In this document: positions 1 to 8,863 of the stretch, in pieces
Position numbering within the stretch: position 1 is the stretch's first letter
Layout: each line of letters starts with the position of its first letter
Program-made: the position numbers and the translations under genes
Assembly (NCBI GenBank): GCA_007692485.1
Contig: REBY01000089.1
Location: forward strand, 1 to 37,351
DNA: 37,351 nt
From: Pseudomonadaceae bacterium
GTDB lineage: Bacteria; Pseudomonadota; Gammaproteobacteria; Pseudomonadales; Pseudomonadaceae
Direction: 5' to 3'
The notes under the pieces: generated by a model
Told to the model about the DNA's origin: nothing
Database searches by the model: none
The model's input: the letters and a program-made list of their open reading frames with translations, nothing else

Positions 1-1289
1 GCGATCAGTGGCAGGTTGTAGTGCAAAAAGGTGGGCACTACGGTATCCCAGATGTGGTTGTGCTGGCCGTCGACGTTAAGACCAGCGGTTGGCCCAAGTG
101 TCGAATCCGAGGCCGGTGAGCCCGCATCACCCAGCGCTGCAGCAGTCCCTACCAGGGCAACGATGGCCAGCGGGCTGAAACCCAGCTCCATCGCCAGCGG
201 GACGTATATGGCGGCGATAATGGGAATGGTCGAGAAAGACGAACCAATACCCATAGTGATCAATAGCCCGACCAGTAGCATCAGCAGCGCAGCCAGCGCT
301 CGATTACCACCGATTAGCTCAGCGGAGCTGCCAACCAGCGTCTGAATAGCGCCGGTCTCGCGCATGACTTCGGCAAAGCCGGACGCGGCAATCATGATAA
401 AGCCGATCATCGCCATCATCTTCATGCCTTCGGTAAACACGTCATCGGCCTCGCGCCAACGCACCACCCCGGACAGGGAAAACACCACAAAACCGGCCAG
501 CGCGCCAATGATCATTGAGTTCAGCCAGAGTTGAACGACAAAGGCGACCACCACAGCAAAGAGCGCGACCAGTAAGGTCAACGGACTGTACCGGGCTTCA
601 CCGCGCTCCCGTTGTTCAGCCGGGTCCATGGCGTAATGACGCGGGCGGCGATAGCTGATAAACGCGGCCACCAGCAACCCGAGCAGCATGCCCAACGCCG
701 GCAAGGCCATCGCCTGCATCACATTGACTGCGGCGATATCAGCTCCACTCTCTGCCACATTGGCAAGCAGAATGTTGTTCAGAAAGATGCCGCCAAAACC
801 GACCGGCAGAAACATGTACGGCGTAATCAAGCCAAACGTAAGAATACACGCCACCAAGCGGCGATCCAGTTGCAGGCGGGCCATAACATAGAGCAGTGGC
901 GGGATTAGCAGAGGGATAAAAGCAATATGGATGGGTAAAATATTCTGCGAAGAAATGGCCACCGCCAGAATCACTAACAAGAGCAAAGCCTTGAGCCAAC
1001 CGGAGGCACTGTCTTGTTGCTGCTCGACCAGCCCCAGTGCTTTGTCCGCCACTGCATGGGCCAGGCCAGACTTGGCAATCGCAACGGCGAAAGCACCCAG
1101 CAAGGCATAGCTCAGAGCGACAGTCGCGCCTTTACCCAAACCACCCTGAAAAGCCTCCAGAGTCGCTTCGATACCCAGGCCACCCAGCAGACCACCCACT
1201 AACGCACCGATAATCAGCGCCACAACCACATGCACCCGCGCCAGACTGAGCGCCAGCATGACAACGACGGCAGCAACCACCGCATTCAT
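1..1289 (-). CDS. Na+/H+ antiporter family transporter (YuiF/COG2056-like), 3' end cut by window edge
   Basis: Reading the minus strand from an ATG at 1289 gives about 429 uninterrupted codons running off the left edge, so the C-terminus is missing. An AGGAA ribosome binding site lies 6 nt upstream of the ATG. The protein is almost entirely hydrophobic. It opens with [20 protein letters not shown] and contains many Gly/Ala-rich membrane segments, e.g. around [12 protein letters not shown] and [14 protein letters not shown]. There is a conserved-looking polar stretch ([20 protein letters not shown]) and a late [15 protein letters not shown] segment typical of the NhaC/COG2056 ion-transporter superfamily. 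The expected role is inner-membrane cation/proton exchange or transport of an organic anion. The family is clear but the substrate is an inference. It stands alone and is divergent from the flavin reductase at 1460. At about 430 residues it probably lacks only a short C-terminal piece. Confidence 0.8.
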
Positions 1290-1459
1290 AGCATATTCCT
1301 CTGCATTGGGCTCCGGGAGCCAAAGGGCGCGTACTTTGCCGCAAGCCCGATACGCTGTCAAAGCCACCGGTCGTGGAATATCTGATGACGATTTTACGTT
1401 CCCGACCAGCCGCCAAATAACCTAGGATGTAATCAACCCATTACCAAGGAGAAGTCAGC

Positions 1460-2053
1460 TTGAATATTGCCATTGTCGCCGGCAGCAGCCGCAGTAACAG
1501 CCAGACCGCCAAGGTGGCGCGGTTTATCCGCCAAACCCTGATCAACCAGTTTGACCTGGCCGAGCAGGAGGTCAGCGTAATTGATCTGGGTAGCTATCCC
1601 CTGCCCTTGTGGCCAGGTGAAGACCAGGGGCCCTGGGGTATGTTCGAGAAGCAACTGGCCAAGGCCGATGCCTTGATCGTGCTGGCGCCGGAATGGCACG
1701 GCATGGCGTGCCCGGCGATCAAGAACTTCTTCCTCTATGCAACCAAGGCGCAACTGGCGCACAAGCCGGCTATGCTCGGCGGTATTTCAGCGGGGGTGGG
1801 TGGCGCTTATCCGATCAGCGAGTTGCGCGCCTCCAGCTACAAAAACTGCCGGCTATGCTATATACCCGAACACCTGATCGTTCGCGGTGTTGAGAAGGTT
1901 ATGAACATGCCGCTGCCGGTGGACGAAGAAGACCGACGGATTCGTGAGCGGTTGAATTACAATCTGGACGTGCTGTTGCGCTATGCCGATGCGCTCAAGC
2001 CAGTGCGGGCGGCCATCGATATGAGCCTGCCCGAGTTTGCCAACGGTATGTAA
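1460..2053 (+). CDS. NAD(P)H-dependent FMN reductase family protein
   Basis: This 197-residue flavodoxin-fold oxidoreductase belongs to the NADPH-dependent FMN reductase family (relatives include ChrR/YieF). The N-terminal phosphate-binding loop GSSRSNSQ (residues 8-15) and the segment LAPEWHGMACPAIKNF, which should contact the flavin, are visible. The family transfers electrons from NAD(P)H through FMN to quinones, metals or other acceptors; the physiological acceptor here cannot be read from sequence. The start is a TTG at 1460 supported by a strong AAGGAGA at 1446-1452, 7 nt upstream; no in-frame ATG precedes it. The gene stands alone, divergent from the transporter, and ends just before a perfect bidirectional terminator shared with the FimV-like gene. 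It is a cytoplasmic protein of normal length. Confidence 0.85.
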   Translation: MNIAIVAGSSRSNSQTAKVARFIRQTLINQFDLAEQEVSVIDLGSYPLPLWPGEDQGPWGMFEKQLAKADALIVLAPEWHGMACPAIKNFFLYATKAQLAHKPAMLGGISAGVGGAYPISELRASSYKNCRLCYIPEHLIVRGVEKVMNMPLPVDEEDRRIRERLNYNLDVLLRYADALKPVRAAIDMSLPEFANGM

Positions 2054-2069
2054 TGTTTGCGGATGGATA

Positions 2070-2099
2070 AAAAATGCCCCGACATTGCGGGGCATTTTT
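2070..2099. terminator. Bidirectional intrinsic terminator
   Basis: A perfect 12-bp stem (AAAAATGCCCCG / CGGGGCATTTTT) encloses a 6-nt loop. A-tracts and T-tracts on the two sides let it work in both directions. It lies between the convergent flavin reductase (stop at 2053) and the FimV-like gene (stop at 2103). Confidence 0.92.
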
Positions 2100-2102
2100 C
2101 AA

Positions 2103-4115
2103 TCAGCGGCGAGCGTTGTCATTCTGCTTTTGCGCGTCCGGCTCATGGTCATCCAGTTCCTCGACTTCCGGTAAACGATCAAGGCTGCTTTCAAAGTCTT
2201 CGTCGAAATCTGCCTCAACATTGGCCGTCTTACCATTATCCTGCTTGCGGGTGGATTCGGGCTCCAATGCGTCAATCAGGTCCCAGTCAGGATCCAGGCT
2301 GAAATCGTTCAGATTCATCTGCCCTTCATCGCTGTCACCATCGAGCTCTTCGGCAACGTCGAAAGCATCTTCATCCAGTAGCGGATCAAGTTTATCAATC
2401 TTTTCAACCTGATCATTTTTTTCCGCAGCCGTCTGTTGCAAGGCCGGAAAACGGGTGCGTAATTGATCAATGGCTGCGGCGTCACCACCGAGCTGAACGG
2501 TTTCTACCGCCAAATCATTGAACGCTGGCGCATCATTCAGCTCACCCAGCACGCGCAATTGCTTGTAGCGCAGTTCCAGTCGCTCGGGATCTTCACCAAT
2601 CGCCTTGTCGAGCATGACCCTGGCTTCCGGAAAACGACCATAAGTCAGGTAGAGTTCAACACCATCCAATGGGTCCACAGACGCTTTCGGCGCCTCTTGC
2701 GGCTTGACCGGGCGGGCCAGCATACGCGGCTCGTCGTTGCTGGGCACCACAGGTACAACAGCAGGCTCAGCCGGTTGTGGCTCACGCCGACGACGGATAA
2801 ACAAGCCCAGCAAAAATGCCAGCAGAACTGCTAGCGGCGACCACAGCCATGCATTCCAACCGCCTTCCGAGGTTGCCGGCGTGGTATCGACCACATTGGT
2901 CTCACTGGCTGGCAGTGGGTCAGCACTCAGACTGCCAGCGTCCGGGCTGTCAGTTCCATCGGGCGAGGTCGGGCCACCCTGGTCAGGACCATCCAGTTGC
3001 CCACCAGCAATCACACCCGCCACCGCCGCGCCCTCTTCAGCGTCCCGCGCCGCACGCATCACTTCCAGCTCAGCTTGCAGCATGGCGATTTGCCGGTCGC
3101 GATCTTCCAGCTCACTGAGCAAAACATTAAAACGCGACTCCAGCGCTGCCATACGCTGCTGCATGCCCTGGGTATCGCTATCGCTGGCGACTTCGGGAAG
3201 GCTTTCGATACGCAGACGATCTTCCAGACTCGCGGACTCTTCACTGCTGGCGGCAACAGCCGACTCGGTTTCACGCTCAGGATCGCGCGCTTCAACCACT
3301 GTCGGCGCTTCCATGCCGCGCGGCGGCGTTCTTGCAGGTTCGGCGGCCTCAGCATCGATGGCCTCATCCGCCAGACTCGCCACTGCCGTTTCAACGCCCA
3401 ACTGATCTGCCGTGGGTAAGACCAGTTCCTGATTCTGCCGCAGACGGTTGATATCACCATTGACAAAGGCATCAGGGTTCAGCGCACGTATCGCCAGCAT
3501 GGTTTGGCGGATACCCGCCTGTGGGGCCGGACGCTGACTGCTGGCGATATCCCATAAGGTGTCACCGGCTTGTGTGGTGTAGCGCAACGCGTCACTGGCG
3601 GGGGAAAGGTCAGGCAGTGCCGGCGCAGCAGGTTCAACTCGAGCGGCCGGTGCCGTAGCAACCGGACGTTGACTCGGGGCCGGAGTTGCCGCCGCTACCC
3701 GGCCGGTTCGCGGGTCATACATTGGCGGGTCAAGCAGCAACGTATATTCGCGCAAAATTCGCCCGTTGGGCTGTCGCAGCTCAACCAGAAAGTTCAGGTA
3801 AGGCTCGCGCACCGGTTGCTGCGATTGCACCCGTATTTGTAACTGTCCGCCTTCACTGACCGGTGTAAAGCGCAGGCCGGTGAGAAAGTGCGAGCGCTCA
3901 ACGCCAGCCAGCTGAAAGGCATCCGAACTGGCCAGGCTGACGCGAATATCGTCTACCTGAATGCCCTGTGAACCCGGAATCTCGATCACCGCGTTGAGTG
4001 GCTGATTAAGCGCTGATTTCAGCTCCAGTTCACCCAGCCCGACTGCGTTACTCACGCCGACATATAATGCTGCCAGTGAGGCAACGCCTGTGATGATTTG
4101 GCGTTTGACTGCCAT
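2103..4115 (-). CDS. FimV-like LysM peptidoglycan-binding inner-membrane protein (short paralogue)
   Basis: A 670-residue protein with FimV architecture. It has a signal peptide (residues 1 to about 25, ending near SNAVG). A FimV N-terminal domain follows (LGELELKSALNQPL ... REPYLNFLVELRQPNGR ... LLLDPP, about 27-130), then a LysM domain (TQAGDTLWDIA, about 175-240). Next come a coiled coil (about 315-360), one membrane segment (WLWSPLAVLLAFLLGLF, about 420-440) and a cytoplasmic TPR-like segment (LYLTYGRFPEARVMLDKAI). The tail is acidic and ends QKQNDNARR. FimV-type proteins connect peptidoglycan to polar assemblies such as type IV pili; the role of this copy is inferred. It lacks the C-terminal FimV motif seen in the second FimV of this window (34554-37351). 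I chose ATG 4115 because an AGAGGA site precedes it and the signal peptide starts there; a longer reading to 4205 adds an implausible N-terminus. Confidence 0.85.
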   Translation of the reverse strand: MAVKRQIITGVASLAALYVGVSNAVGLGELELKSALNQPLNAVIEIPGSQGIQVDDIRVSLASSDAFQLAGVERSHFLTGLRFTPVSEGGQLQIRVQSQQPVREPYLNFLVELRQPNGRILREYTLLLDPPMYDPRTGRVAAATPAPSQRPVATAPAARVEPAAPALPDLSPASDALRYTTQAGDTLWDIASSQRPAPQAGIRQTMLAIRALNPDAFVNGDINRLRQNQELVLPTADQLGVETAVASLADEAIDAEAAEPARTPPRGMEAPTVVEARDPERETESAVAASSEESASLEDRLRIESLPEVASDSDTQGMQQRMAALESRFNVLLSELEDRDRQIAMLQAELEVMRAARDAEEGAAVAGVIAGGQLDGPDQGGPTSPDGTDSPDAGSLSADPLPASETNVVDTTPATSEGGWNAWLWSPLAVLLAFLLGLFIRRRREPQPAEPAVVPVVPSNDEPRMLARPVKPQEAPKASVDPLDGVELYLTYGRFPEARVMLDKAIGEDPERLELRYKQLRVLGELNDAPAFNDLAVETVQLGGDAAAIDQLRTRFPALQQTAAEKNDQVEKIDKLDPLLDEDAFDVAEELDGDSDEGQMNLNDFSLDPDWDLIDALEPESTRKQDNGKTANVEADFDEDFESSLDRLPEVEELDDHEPDAQKQNDNARR

Positions 4116-4451: not shown

Positions 4452-5195
4452 ATGAGCGATATTGACCAACTGTTTTCCCGCCCTCTGGCCAAGGTCAGCG
4501 ACTTTGTCTTTGACCAGGATGTTGCGCGCGTGTTTCCCGATATGATCAAGCGCTCGGTACCCGGCTACCCGACCATTATCGAATCCATTGGCTTGATCGC
4601 TGGCCAGCACGCACAGGCCAACAGCCTGATCTATGACCTGGGCTGCTCACTGGGCGCGGCTACACAGTCCATGCGTCGCCACGTACATGTCGAAGGCTGC
4701 CGGATCATTGCCGTGGATAACGCCGCAGCCATGCTCGAGCGCTGCAATGAATATTTGCAGGCGCAGGACGCTATGGTGGAAAGCCTGCTACCGGCAGAAA
4801 CCCGGCAAGCCGACATCCTCGATTTGACGCTCGCACCCTGCTCCGTAGTGGTGCTGAATTTCACCTTGCAATTCATCCCGCCTGACGATCGCCTGACCCT
4901 GCTGCGCAAGATCCGCGACGCCTTGCTGCCCGGCGGCATTCTGATCCTGTCGGAGAAGCTGCAATTTGCCGATCCAGCCACCCAGGAGAATCTGGAGCGC
5001 CTGCATTACGCCTTCAAACGCGCAAATGGCTATAGCGATCTTGAGATCGCACAAAAGCGCAGTGCGATAGAGCATGTGATGCGGCCAGATACGCTGGAAT
5101 GCCACCAGCAACGCTTGCAAGAGGCTGGCTTTGCACGCAGCCATACCTGGTTCCAATGCCTCAACTTCTGCTCGATGATTGCCTGCCGTGATTGA
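4452..5195 (+). CDS. cmoA: Carboxy-S-adenosyl-L-methionine synthase CmoA
   Basis: A 247-residue class I methyltransferase fold matching CmoA, which converts S-adenosylmethionine plus prephenate to carboxy-SAM, the donor CmoB uses to make 5-carboxymethoxyuridine at tRNA position 34. Diagnostic stretches include the N-terminus [32 protein letters not shown] (about 38-50), the SAM-binding motif [11 protein letters not shown] (about 61-71), and [12 protein letters not shown] (about 136-147). C-terminal motifs include LSEKLQF and [13 protein letters not shown]. The length equals the family norm. It overlaps the start of cmoB by 8 nt, so the two enzymes of one pathway are translationally coupled. 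The start ATG lacks a strong Shine-Dalgarno sequence, but the N-terminus matches the family. Confidence 0.97.
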
Positions 5196-6174
5196 TAATT
5201 CTGCCCTGTTTACCGCTCTGGCGGACACCCCGCTGGCCACCTGGCCAGACACACTGCAAAGCGTACTCGATGAGCGCCAGCAGGCGATGCAACGGCACGG
5301 CGACTGGCAACGCTGGCAAACCAGCCTGCACGCTTTGCCAGCAGCGCAGCCCAGCCAGGTCGATTTAACGGCGGCCGTGCGTGTTGGCCAAGCAGCTGAT
5401 CTGCCGGCAGATCAGCACGCCCCTTTACGCGATGCGCTGATGGGTTTGCATCCCTGGCGCAAAGGCCCCTTCCACCTGTTTGACCAGCATATTGATTGCG
5501 AATGGCGCTCGGACTGGAAGTGGCAGCGGGTAGCACCGCATATCGATCTGCGTAACCGCCTGGTGCTGGATGTAGGTTCGGGGAACGGTTACTACCTCTG
5601 GCGCATGCTCGGTGCGGGTGCTCGACTGGCTCTGGGAGTTGATCCCAACTTGCTGTTTATGCATCAGTTTAATGCCCTAAAACAGTATTTACCTGAACAC
5701 CCTGCCTGGCAGCTACCGCTGACACTGGAGCAACTGCCGGTGCCGCCTGGCGGCTTCGATACGGTATTTTCCATGGGCGTGCTTTATCACCGCCGCTCGC
5801 CTATCGACCACCTGCTGCAACTCAAGGCCTGCTTGCGCCCCGGTGGCGAACTGGTCCTGGAAACCCTGGTCATTGAAGGCGACGAGCGCAACTGCCTGTT
5901 GCCGGAAGACCGTTATGCCCAAATGCGTAATGTCTGGTTTTTGCCCTCGGTAGCCATGCTGGAACGCTTCCTGGCACGTTGCGGCTTCCATTCGATTCGT
6001 TGTGTGGATGTGAGCAGAACGCTACCCGATGAACAGCGCAGCACAGAGTGGATGCGCTTTCAGTCACTGCCCAACTTCCTCGATGCCGAGAACCCGGACT
6101 TGACCGTTGAAGGCTACCCCGCGCCGCTACGCGCCACCTTGGTAGCCAGATCAGGATCAATGGGGTCAGAGTAA
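5188..6174 (+). CDS. cmoB: tRNA U34 carboxymethyltransferase CmoB with repeat-derived C-terminal tail
   Basis: A 328-residue protein that transfers the carboxymethyl group of carboxy-SAM to 5-hydroxyuridine at the wobble position of tRNA. The CmoB core is complete. It includes [22 protein letters not shown] (family positions for carboxy-SAM contact), the Rossmann motif [14 protein letters not shown], and [18 protein letters not shown]-like and [14 protein letters not shown] segments lie near the end. I chose GTG 5188, which gives MIDNSALF as in relatives; a TTG at 5179 would add three residues. The last residues SGSMGSE and the TAA stop lie inside a perfect inverted repeat (6153-6245), so the natural C-terminus has been replaced after about VAR. 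The replacement falls at the very end and should be tolerated. Confidence 0.95.
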
Positions 6175-6245
6175 ATTGAAACCCCGGTATCTTGCTTGTA
6201 TCACCTGCAACAGCTGTTTCAATTTACTCTGACCCCATTGATCCT
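6153..6245. repeat. Perfect 30-bp inverted repeat spanning both stop codons of convergent genes
   Basis: The left arm (6153-6182) and right arm (6216-6245) are exact reverse complements over 30 bp, separated by 33 nt. Each arm contains GGGGTCAGAGTAAATT. Read outward-in, each arm translates as GSMGSE followed by TAA, in frame with cmoB from the left and with the GGDEF-EAL gene from the right. The two stop codons are mirror images at 6172-6174 and 6224-6226. The hairpin could terminate transcription from both sides, although it lacks a U-tract. The core resembles, from memory, short dispersed repeats associated with REP/IS200-type (RAYT) transposases in proteobacteria; that link is an inference. 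Confidence 0.93.
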
Positions 6246-8863
6246 ATCCAGGCTTCGAGAGCTTCGGGTGGCAGGGGGCGGGAGAACAGGAAACCCTGGC
6301 ATAGCGCGCAACCTCGGCTTTGCAAAAACTTCCACTGCGCGTCGGTTTCTACGCCTTCGGCGACCGCACTCAAGCCCATGTTTGCGGCCATATCCAGAAT
6401 GGTGGTCACCAGCTGATTGTCTTCTGGACGTTCCGGAACGCCGGCGAGAAAGCTCTTGTCGATCTTCAGCCGGTCAATCGGGAAGCGGCGCAGATAGGCC
6501 AGCGAAGAGTAACCGGTACCAAAATCATCGATCGCCAGCCCAACGCCCAGCTTCTTCAGTTGGCGCAGGGTTTGCTCACTTTGTTCGGCATGCGTCATCA
6601 AGGCTGACTCGGTAATCTCCAGCTCCAGCATCCGCGCCGGCAAGCCGGTGCTTTGCAGGGCCTCATCTACCAGCGCAACGACATCCTGCTGAACAAATTG
6701 ACGCGGCGAAAGATTGACCGCAATAAACGCCAGACCGAGCCCCTTATGGTGCCAGGCCAGCGCCTGGCGACAAGCTTGCTGCAAGACCCAGCGGCCGATG
6801 GATACGATCAGCCCGCTATGTTCAGCCAGCGGTATAAAGCGATCCGGCGCAATCATCCCCAGGGTTGGGTGCTGCCAGCGCAACAGGGCTTCAACTCCGA
6901 TGGTGCGTCCGCTACGAACGTTCAAGAGCGGCTGGTAATGCAGGCTCAGCTCATCATTCTCCACCGCTTTGCGCAAGGCACGCTCAAGCTCGAAACGCTC
7001 ATTGGCTGCCTCGGTCATCTCGCGGCTATATGCACAGACTTGATCACGCCCACGTGATTTTGCGGTATCCATGGCAGCATCGGCATTACGCACCAGATCT
7101 GCGGCCGTAGAGCCGTGCTGTGGGAAGTAGGCATAGCCAATGCTGCTACCCAGATAGATTTCCCGCCCATCCGCCAATACCAGTGGTCGGCGCATTTCTG
7201 CGCAAATAGCCTGACCGATGTCGACAATTTTCTCGGGCGGCTGATCAGGTGCCAACAGAAGAAACTCGTCGCCGCCCAGGCGCGCCAGCACATCATCCGG
7301 GCCAGCAAATATCTGCAGCCGTTTGCCGGCTTCCATCAACACTTCGTCACCCACAGCATGGCCAAGGCTGTCGTTGATCGCCTTGAAGCGGTCCAGGTCG
7401 ATATAGAGTACGGCTAACCCTTGGTGGTCTGCCTGTCGCTGACGAATGGCATACTCTAGCCGCTGCATCACCAGATGCCGGTTGGCAAGCCCGGTAAGGC
7501 TGTCATAGTGTGCCATCAGCTGCAGCTGCTCCTGACTGCGGCGCAGGCGGGTAATATCGCTGAACATGACCAGATAGCGGGTTACTCGCCCGCTCGCGTC
7601 GGTCACGGCATTCGCCGTCACCCAGAGACTGATTTCACCCTCACCGGCGCGCTCGATCAGACTTTCACCCTGCCAATATCCATCGCGACGCAACTGCCTG
7701 AGCATGTCACGGGTCAGTTGCCAGGGCGTGCATGCCTTGCCACGCAGCATGGGCCGCAAGCCCTTGACCTGTTCGCAACCCAGCCCGGTAATCTGGGTAA
7801 AGGCCGGATTGACATTGAGTGTGCGCCAGCTAGCGTCCAATACCATCATGCCTTCACGGCTGTTATCAAACACCGCAGCGGCTTCGCGCAGGGACTCTTC
7901 CGCCGCTTTGTGCTCGGTTATATCATCGGCAATCATCACATAGCATTGCACTGAGCCATCGCGCTCGCGCAGCAAGGTCACGGTCAAGCTGATCCAGGCA
8001 ACGCTTTGGTCATAGCGTCGATAACGGCTTTGCAGCTGGAAACTTTCGACCCGACCACGACGTAAGTCGCGCATTAGCTCTTCCAGCCGGTTGGCGGTCT
8101 GATCCAGTAACAGAGTGCGCGGCTTAACAGACGCCATGGTTGCTTCGGTGTAACCGGTATTCTGGTAAAACGCCGGATTGGCACTGAGCAAGCGCCCCTC
8201 CCGATCCAGCAGCAGCATCCCTACGGCGGCATGCTCAAACACAGCGACAAAGCGCTGCTCAATCAGCTCGCGCTCTTCCGCCAGACGGCTCTTCTGGACG
8301 ACCAGTGCCGCCAGGCTGGAAAACTCTTCCAGCCAGTCACGCTCGTTGCAATCAGGCTCTGTGGGCTCACGATTGTAGACGGCAAAGGTACCAAGCACCT
8401 TGCCATCTTCATTTCTGATCGGCGATGACCAGCAGGCGCGAATGCCGCCAACGTGGGCCAGCTCCTGAAAGTCCTGCCAGAGGGGATCGGTTTGCGTGTC
8501 GCTGACGAAGACGGCTTCACCGCGCGCCGCGGCAGTACCACAAGAGCCTATGCCCTCACCCGGAGTCACCCCATTGAGCATGCGGGTGTAAGCAGCCGGC
8601 AAACTGGGCCCGGCCAGGGTGCGGAAGTTGCCGTCGTTTGGATCAATCAGCAGCACCGAGGCCATCTGCCCCGGCCGCAAAGCTTCCCACTCTAGCGCCA
8701 GGCGCTCAAGCAGCTCAGCCAGTGGCGCTCTGGCGAGCAAACCATCAAAGAGTTGCATACGCGCGCGCTGGACCAGACGCTGGTCTACTGGCTGCCTACT
8801 CGGATCAATCAACTCATCAGGCTTGATCAGGCCGGTTATTCGGCGAAGCAAGGCTTTCAACAT
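6224..8863 (-). CDS. GAF-PAS-PAS-GGDEF-EAL cyclic-di-GMP enzyme
   Basis: An 879-residue cytoplasmic signalling protein without obvious membrane segments. Domains in order are GAF (about 40-190), PAS (about 200-315), PAS (about 325-440), GGDEF (about 450-610) and EAL (about 625-870). The GGDEF motif is intact (RLGGDEF, G530-F534), but the inhibitory RxxD site just before it is absent (the position reads GPDD). The EAL domain keeps its signature: EALLRW at 658, NLSPRQF, ELEITES, DDFGTGYSSL with D779/D780, K800, and EGVET near 836-840. It is therefore likely to have phosphodiesterase activity and possibly cyclase activity, tuned by the sensory domains. The protein ends AWIGSMGSE, where the last six residues and the stop come from the inverted repeat at 6153-6245. 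The ATG at 8863 has only a weak upstream GAG. It is convergent with cmoB. Confidence 0.95.
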   Translation of the reverse strand: MLKALLRRITGLIKPDELIDPSRQPVDQRLVQRARMQLFDGLLARAPLAELLERLALEWEALRPGQMASVLLIDPNDGNFRTLAGPSLPAAYTRMLNGVTPGEGIGSCGTAAARGEAVFVSDTQTDPLWQDFQELAHVGGIRACWSSPIRNEDGKVLGTFAVYNREPTEPDCNERDWLEEFSSLAALVVQKSRLAEERELIEQRFVAVFEHAAVGMLLLDREGRLLSANPAFYQNTGYTEATMASVKPRTLLLDQTANRLEELMRDLRRGRVESFQLQSRYRRYDQSVAWISLTVTLLRERDGSVQCYVMIADDITEHKAAEESLREAAAVFDNSREGMMVLDASWRTLNVNPAFTQITGLGCEQVKGLRPMLRGKACTPWQLTRDMLRQLRRDGYWQGESLIERAGEGEISLWVTANAVTDASGRVTRYLVMFSDITRLRRSQEQLQLMAHYDSLTGLANRHLVMQRLEYAIRQRQADHQGLAVLYIDLDRFKAINDSLGHAVGDEVLMEAGKRLQIFAGPDDVLARLGGDEFLLLAPDQPPEKIVDIGQAICAEMRRPLVLADGREIYLGSSIGYAYFPQHGSTAADLVRNADAAMDTAKSRGRDQVCAYSREMTEAANERFELERALRKAVENDELSLHYQPLLNVRSGRTIGVEALLRWQHPTLGMIAPDRFIPLAEHSGLIVSIGRWVLQQACRQALAWHHKGLGLAFIAVNLSPRQFVQQDVVALVDEALQSTGLPARMLELEITESALMTHAEQSEQTLRQLKKLGVGLAIDDFGTGYSSLAYLRRFPIDRLKIDKSFLAGVPERPEDNQLVTTILDMAANMGLSAVAEGVETDAQWKFLQSRGCALCQGFLFSRPLPPEALEAWIGSMGSE

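Follow-up and report, generated by a model that had tools for sequence, protein, structure and literature searches.

The convergent junction between cmoB and a PAS-GGDEF-EAL gene in the window, the whole stretch of 37,351 nucleotides analysed from a Pseudomonadaceae bacterium, very probably carries a REPIN-like doublet of ~27-bp repeats of the TIRYT/RAYT type with a GGGGTCAG core, most likely moved there by a transposase. Alongside the doublet were observed a repeat family with lineage-specific abundance, a repeat-free version of the junction in a relative, a linkage of the repeat to transposase genes and six new gene tails.

The left arm of the doublet spans 6153-6182 on the forward strand, with the core ATCAATGGGGTCAGAGTAAATTGA at 6156-6179, and the right arm spans 6216-6245 on the reverse strand, with its core at 6219-6242. 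The arms are perfect complements over 30 bp and form the longest perfect arm pair in the region, at exactly the coordinates given in the original prediction. The 33-nt spacer between them (6183-6215) was compared with those of four other long doublets and resembles none of them significantly. The G+C content of the element is 0.44, against 0.59 for the window. On the forward strand, cmoB (5179-6174, listed from a TTG start), encoding tRNA uridine 5-oxyacetic acid synthase (PF08003; TIGR00452, 455.5 bits with a cut-off of 275), runs into the left arm and stops at the TAA at 6172-6174. On the reverse strand, the gene of an 879-aa GAF-PAS-GGDEF-EAL protein (6224-8863; PF00563, PF00990 and others, with 261 bits for EAL and 147 bits for GGDEF in Pfam) runs into the right arm and stops at the TAA at 6224-6226. 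One reading frame of each arm, termed frame 0, reads TCA-ATG-GGG-TCA-GAG-TAA, and the final six codons of both genes, GSMGSE, are supplied by the repeat, the EAL protein reading EAWIGSMGSE-stop at its C-terminus. The two stops lie at mirror-image positions (6153+6245-6174 = 6224), and the claim that both genes end GSMGSE-stop in this symmetrical way was confirmed in every detail.

The source genome (2.8 Mb in 209 contigs, 93.7% complete) contains 23 copies of ATCAATGGGGTCAGAGTNNATTGA with up to three mismatches allowed, 21 of them with none and two with one, against 0 copies of the reversed control pattern; with this difference, and with a z of -10.85 for the 93-nt element folded as DNA, the doublet exceeds chance. 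The arm belongs to a dispersed repeat as had been supposed, since copies are not confined to the junction, the left arm being only one of the 23. The arm core is GGGGTCAG, which matches the motif GGGGWSAS, in 22 copies and GGTGTCAG in one, and the tetranucleotide GTAG is absent from all 23 arm cores. Sixteen arms make up eight inverted pairs, whose core starts lie 58-59 bp apart in five, 29-31 bp in two and 93 bp in one, and the remaining seven arms are single. The spacers of two doublets, C50a and C50b, match at 26 of 33 positions, which is expected if doublets are copied as units; the spacer of the C146 doublet is weakly related to them.

The abundance of the repeat is a property of the source lineage. 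With the slightly shorter pattern TCAATGGGGTCAGAGTNNATTGA (up to two mismatches), used for the genus survey, the source genome had 23 copies among 37 genus genomes, two others had one each and 34 had none. A looser pattern gave one to three matches in each of 16 relatives, chiefly sequences unlike the repeat, and the 0 matches of its reversed control carry little weight, as the pattern contains CTAG. Among 369 genomes drawn as a sample of the class, 26 (the source included) had a copy with at most one mismatch, and the commonest form among the matches listed was TCAATGGGGTCAGACTCGATTGA. Eighteen named genomes together gave 31 stretches with the exact 21-base TAA form; judged by their titles, most are gammaproteobacterial metagenome-assembled genomes (several of Oceanospirillaceae) and some are alphaproteobacteria. 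Carriage by phages was also considered and found no support, the looser form of the repeat having 0 matches in viral contigs. A distant genome of the same class, G253, carries 25 copies of a sister form, those listed reading GGGGTCAGACTCGATTGA, as well as 20 matches resembling transposases, several of which are interrupted by stops; it appears to be a heavily colonised genome.

When every arm was followed in three frames for open reading frames running into it, six of the 23 arms, all among the nine of the TAA form, were found to end long frame-0 reading frames with (G/E)SMGSE-stop, and none of the other 14 arms was fused in frame 0. Beyond the two genes of the window, these are cobB (257 aa) and a second PAS-GGDEF-EAL gene (698 aa, 1140-3236), which are convergent on contig C27 and have mirror stops, a 5'-nucleotidase gene (307 aa) on C127, and an acetyl-CoA hydrolase-like gene (626 aa) on C82, convergent to a transposase gene. 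The repeat therefore carries a stop in the frame used, a TAA in frame 0, as had been predicted, and other genes of the source genome end alike. In the relative G029, the counterparts of these four end LPALLSG-stop (cobB), QQLGQTVKPAAKA-stop (the second EAL gene), HGISNLQVTDE-stop (the 5'-nucleotidase, in a protein 99% identical) and LGTLETQRA-stop (the acetyl-CoA hydrolase-like gene), so that in G029 all six fused genes have orthologues with other endings, as cmoB also has in a second relative, G015. Twice in the source genome, in the window and on C27, both genes of a convergent pair end in one doublet. Both of these pairs include a PAS-GGDEF-EAL gene, which is probably a coincidence. A large reverse-strand reading frame through the C146 doublet (L054, 3323-4432) was rejected as a fusion, as it has no NCBIfam or Pfam family and overlaps serS.

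Neighbouring genes could be assigned for 13 of the 15 repeat units, five being convergent, eight unidirectional and none divergent, with the other two units at contig ends; three of these calls are less sure, namely C16:843 and C16:2121, which adjoin reading frames without a family, and the C72 copy, which falls within the long N-terminal region of a HAD-family reading frame of uncertain start codon. In the named genomes, where 38 of 39 copies have the exact TAA form, one copy ends a frame-0 reading frame of at least 100 aa (L134, which has 262 codons ahead of the repeat and no Pfam match), and a copy at L114 ends an AAA_17 gene in frame 2. Short frame-0 reading frames running into copies at L112, L113 and L128 have no Pfam match and were not counted. 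Stop donation is thus possible but uncommon in those genomes. The suggestion that the repeat is a genome-wide donor of gene ends accordingly holds for six of 23 arms in the source genome, but in the named genomes such donation was seen at only one of 39 copies, plus the frame-2 case.

These counts bear on an alternative in which the stop-bearing TAA form is selected or targeted as a gene-end cassette, its insertion or survival favouring gene 3' ends in one frame. TAA-form arms are fused in 6/9 cases against 0/14 for the others (Fisher 0.0008 by arm), and by unit in 4/6 against 0/9 (0.011), the C127 doublet, which mixes a TAA arm with a TCA arm, being counted as TAA. All six fusions are in frame 0 and none in frame 2, though frame 2 also gives a short tail (0.016 if the frames were equal), and the rate of 6/9 in the source genome contrasts with 1/39 in the named genomes. 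However, the numbers are small, the tests were chosen post hoc and arms belonging to the same doublet cannot count as independent; the L114 copy uses frame 2; and purifying selection would suffice, as an arm without a frame-0 stop would read on through the hairpin. Such selection or targeting is unlikely, and it is similarly doubtful that the TAA doublet is a portable, frame-biased gene terminus of one lineage, surviving mainly where its codons replace native ends. The frame bias and the association with TAA probably reflect purifying selection, in which immediately stopping arms are tolerated at gene ends.

The relatives read have no repeat at the cmoB end. The nearest by CmoB are G015 (86%) and G029 (83%), in which CmoB ends LVANT-stop and LVARI-stop, respectively, neither with the repeat. 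The cmoB survey covered 30 loci including that of the source genome, from 53 genomes with a strong match, with two of the loci ending less than 200 bp past the gene; GTCAGAG was found near the cmoB end in none of the 29 relatives read, and the orthologue comparison thus supports the proposed insertion of a repeat at this site. In G029, cmoB directly faces the convergent EAL gene, their stops being two bases apart, and a single insertion into so tight a junction is likely to touch both genes; the G015 stretch ends before any EAL gene is seen. Compared with G029, the EAL protein has lost about three residues and gained six (WLANR-stop to WIGSMGSE-stop), and CmoB is at its native length plus six residues. 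The replacement of both native tails that had been envisaged therefore applies to the EAL protein, while CmoB kept its full native length and was extended. The alignment of the cmoB/EAL region places some of the repeat opposite native sequence and was used for the conserved flanks only.

An ordinary bidirectional intrinsic terminator, common to the two convergent genes and arisen in place, would account for a very stable hairpin exactly at the junction, as the RNA fold of 6140-6260 reaches -63.8 kcal/mol (z -9.1, with 0 of 200 shuffles as good). But the relatives read have no equivalent, no consensus intrinsic terminator was found in 6000-6400 by a scan that allows loops of 3-8 only, no T-run occurs in the bases after either arm, and the same sequence is present 23 times in the genome. 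The dispersal of the copies refutes the terminator as the origin of the element, leaving this explanation very improbable; the hairpin may still have a terminator effect, or act as the transcription barrier suggested in the original prediction. A hairpin artefact or chimaeric join in the 209-contig assembly, to which the fragmentation and the several copies near contig ends might point, is scarcely credible, because the same convergent arrangement of cmoB and the EAL gene exists in G029 and doublets of the same family lie between different genes on other contigs.

The preferred reading, a doublet mobilised by a transposase, is supported by the genes that accompany the repeat. The source genome has two genes above the Pfam cut-off for Y1_Tnp (PF01797; 59.8 and 58.7 bits, cut-off 23), one on contig C16 and one on C82. 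Both adjoin a TAA-form copy, which on C16 precedes the ATG by ~245 bp and on C82 follows the stop codon by 12 bp. Neither shows both element ends, as the C16 gene is truncated where its contig stops and contig C82 begins ~100 bp ahead of its gene. A third Y1_Tnp match, on C8, is far under the cut-off (E 0.2), with no repeat copy on the stretch read. The C16 and C82 proteins are 79% identical over 216 aa, and the best NCBIfam model for both is REP_Tyr_transpos (79.7 and 79.3 bits, just below the cut-off of 80), the IS200 model giving 25 and 22.7 bits. The C82 protein contains NHVH at 59 and YRYIELNPVRA at 118, which we take to be the sites of the catalytic residues (the HUH pair and the tyrosine, respectively). 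A phmmer search from the transposase reaches IS608 (2a6m) and TnpA-REP (4er8) with E of about 0.001. At E up to 5, Y1_Tnp is the only Pfam family of the C82 protein, and the ~115 residues beyond it have none.

In other genomes, GGGGTCAG was sought up to 700 bp upstream and up to 300 bp downstream of the homologues, with L223 accepted despite a distance of 591 bp to its repeat. Of the 29 loci, 17 have the core nearby in terminal orientation, nine of them on both sides, and it is absent near 12, some of which are cut by contig ends. The predicted link to a RAYT-like transposase was thus borne out, both above-cut-off genes adjoining a copy; a repeat was seen on one flank of each gene in the source genome, where the contigs end, and on both flanks at those nine loci elsewhere. 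The bases around the core vary among loci and yet stay self-complementary, with a mean stem of 5.07 against 3.92 when the halves are shuffled (3 of 5000 shuffles as good, 14 distinct repeat classes). This first test drew a single string from each locus and did not include C82, L125, L136 or L223; redone with them (26 strings, 15 classes, 20 random draws), it gave the same result, with a shuffle fraction of 0 to 0.0015. Such pairing within the repeat supports the view that a hairpin is recognised and that its core is retained. In the class sample, a homologue at E up to 1e-10 was found in 18 of 25 repeat-bearing genomes versus 12 of 25 repeat-free ones (p 0.07), seven repeat-bearing genomes having none, and a best match of at least 45% identity in 13 of 25 versus five of 25 (p 0.019, with the threshold picked afterwards); the first measure distinguishes the two groups poorly and the second does so better. 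Counting against a transposase-borne doublet are the poor separation by the first measure, the 12 loci with no GGGGTCAG nearby, the bit scores just short of the NCBIfam cut-off and the single flank visible at each source gene. G029 has two partial transposase matches (43% over 87 aa and 39% over 95 aa) and G015 has none.

Taken together, the doublet very probably consists of two inverted copies of a ~27-bp terminal repeat such as borders TIRYT/RAYT-type Y1 (HUH) transposases. The transposase genes of C16 and C82 were probably acquired horizontally, and an enzyme of their kind most likely mobilised the doublet in trans, presumably through a single-stranded hairpin intermediate. The very tight convergent cmoB/EAL junction would have served as the target of insertion in the source lineage. 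An arm meeting a gene end in frame 0 would replace the native end with (G/E)SMGSE-stop, and the SMGSE tails may be tolerated because they are short.

Several known systems resemble this arrangement. TIRtrons, according to excerpts of PMC3733652 and PMC6006769, comprise a Y1 transposase gene flanked by inverted repeats; the terminal inverted repeats of some TIRYT genes have a common GGGGWSAS, which GGGGTCAG fits; the likeness was judged on this motif. According to PMC3733652, some of these repeats are self-complementary, and in certain genomes families of them are scattered about, with many members in dimers or clusters; dimers and singles occur here too. Twenty of 26 TIRYTs fall in TnpA-REP subclass 2.1, which is described with C-terminal HTH domains in extracts of Quentin 2018 (PMC6006769), whereas Pfam finds none in the C82 protein. 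REPINs, as portrayed in passages of Bertels and Rainey 2011 (PMC3116915), share the inverted doublet with a short spacer, the hairpin, the link to a Y1 transposase and apparent copying as a unit, and the source genome offers the eight inverted pairs, the C50a/C50b spacer match of 26/33 and the hairpin z of -10.85. The differences are that no GTAG tag is present here, that there are 23 copies rather than hundreds, and that the GGGGTCAG core sits between short complementary stems. PMC2817692 was drawn on for these statements as well.

The termini of GTAG REPs often give TAG to flanking reading frames, and REPs favour convergent and unidirectional junctions, according to sections of Di Nocera 2013 (PMC3733652); the repeats described here likewise supply the stops of their neighbours and prefer gene 3' ends at such junctions. 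In contrast to GTAG REPs as depicted there, the TAA is internal to the repeat, the added tail is the five-residue SMGSE, and both convergent genes are served, twice. Rickettsia palindromic elements, mentioned in the same text, also become coding sequence, but lie within reading frames, whereas the repeats here end genes. The literature matches listed for GGGGTCAGAG looked unrelated by title, and phrase searches on mobile repeats as a source of new C-termini or stop codons listed nothing relevant by title and opening of the abstract. As stop donation by GTAG REPs has been in print since 2013, in PMC3733652, together with the 3'-end preference, the junction is an instructive case and not a new class, and the gene-end enrichment of the TAA form is a small twist. 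It illustrates how, within one lineage, a mobile repeat can alter the C-termini of several unrelated proteins that seem not to be destroyed by the change, and a relative's repeat-free junction is available for comparison. The pairing of transposase and hairpin, with a constant GGGGTCAG core and variable stems, is useful for the study of DNA recognition by a less-studied RAYT-type branch.

Some minor observations concern the surroundings of the repeats. In G015 (L148), two stretches 3' of the 5'-nucleotidase gene are weakly repeat-like (18/29, p 0.0012; 16/29, p 0.056) and line up approximately with the two arms of the C127 doublet, and the middle segment looks native to both genomes. These stretches could be a decayed copy or chance, and the insertion at the 5'-nucleotidase gene could be older.

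A second palindromic family, GGACGAC(N6)GTCGTCC, has 10 sites in the source genome, including C127:1256-1275 and C72:2080-2099, and one site lies inside the C127 doublet. Elsewhere in the genus, it has 14 sites in G015, five in G025, one in G028 and none in 33 other genomes, its reversed control giving 0-4 per genome and 1 in the source genome. The motif contains CGTC and may be a CGTC-type REP.

Curtailed ATCAATGGG(GTC)-like copies lie within 30 bp of the outer side of 14 of 63 repeats (3/23 in the source genome and 11/40 at the named loci) and of the inner side of two of 63. Partial copies of this kind are present at L052, L054 and L055 in the source genome and at L110, L112, L113, L117, L118, L121, L128, L132, L134 and L135. 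Their excess on the outer side is expected if new copies join into or beside the 5' foot of old ones.
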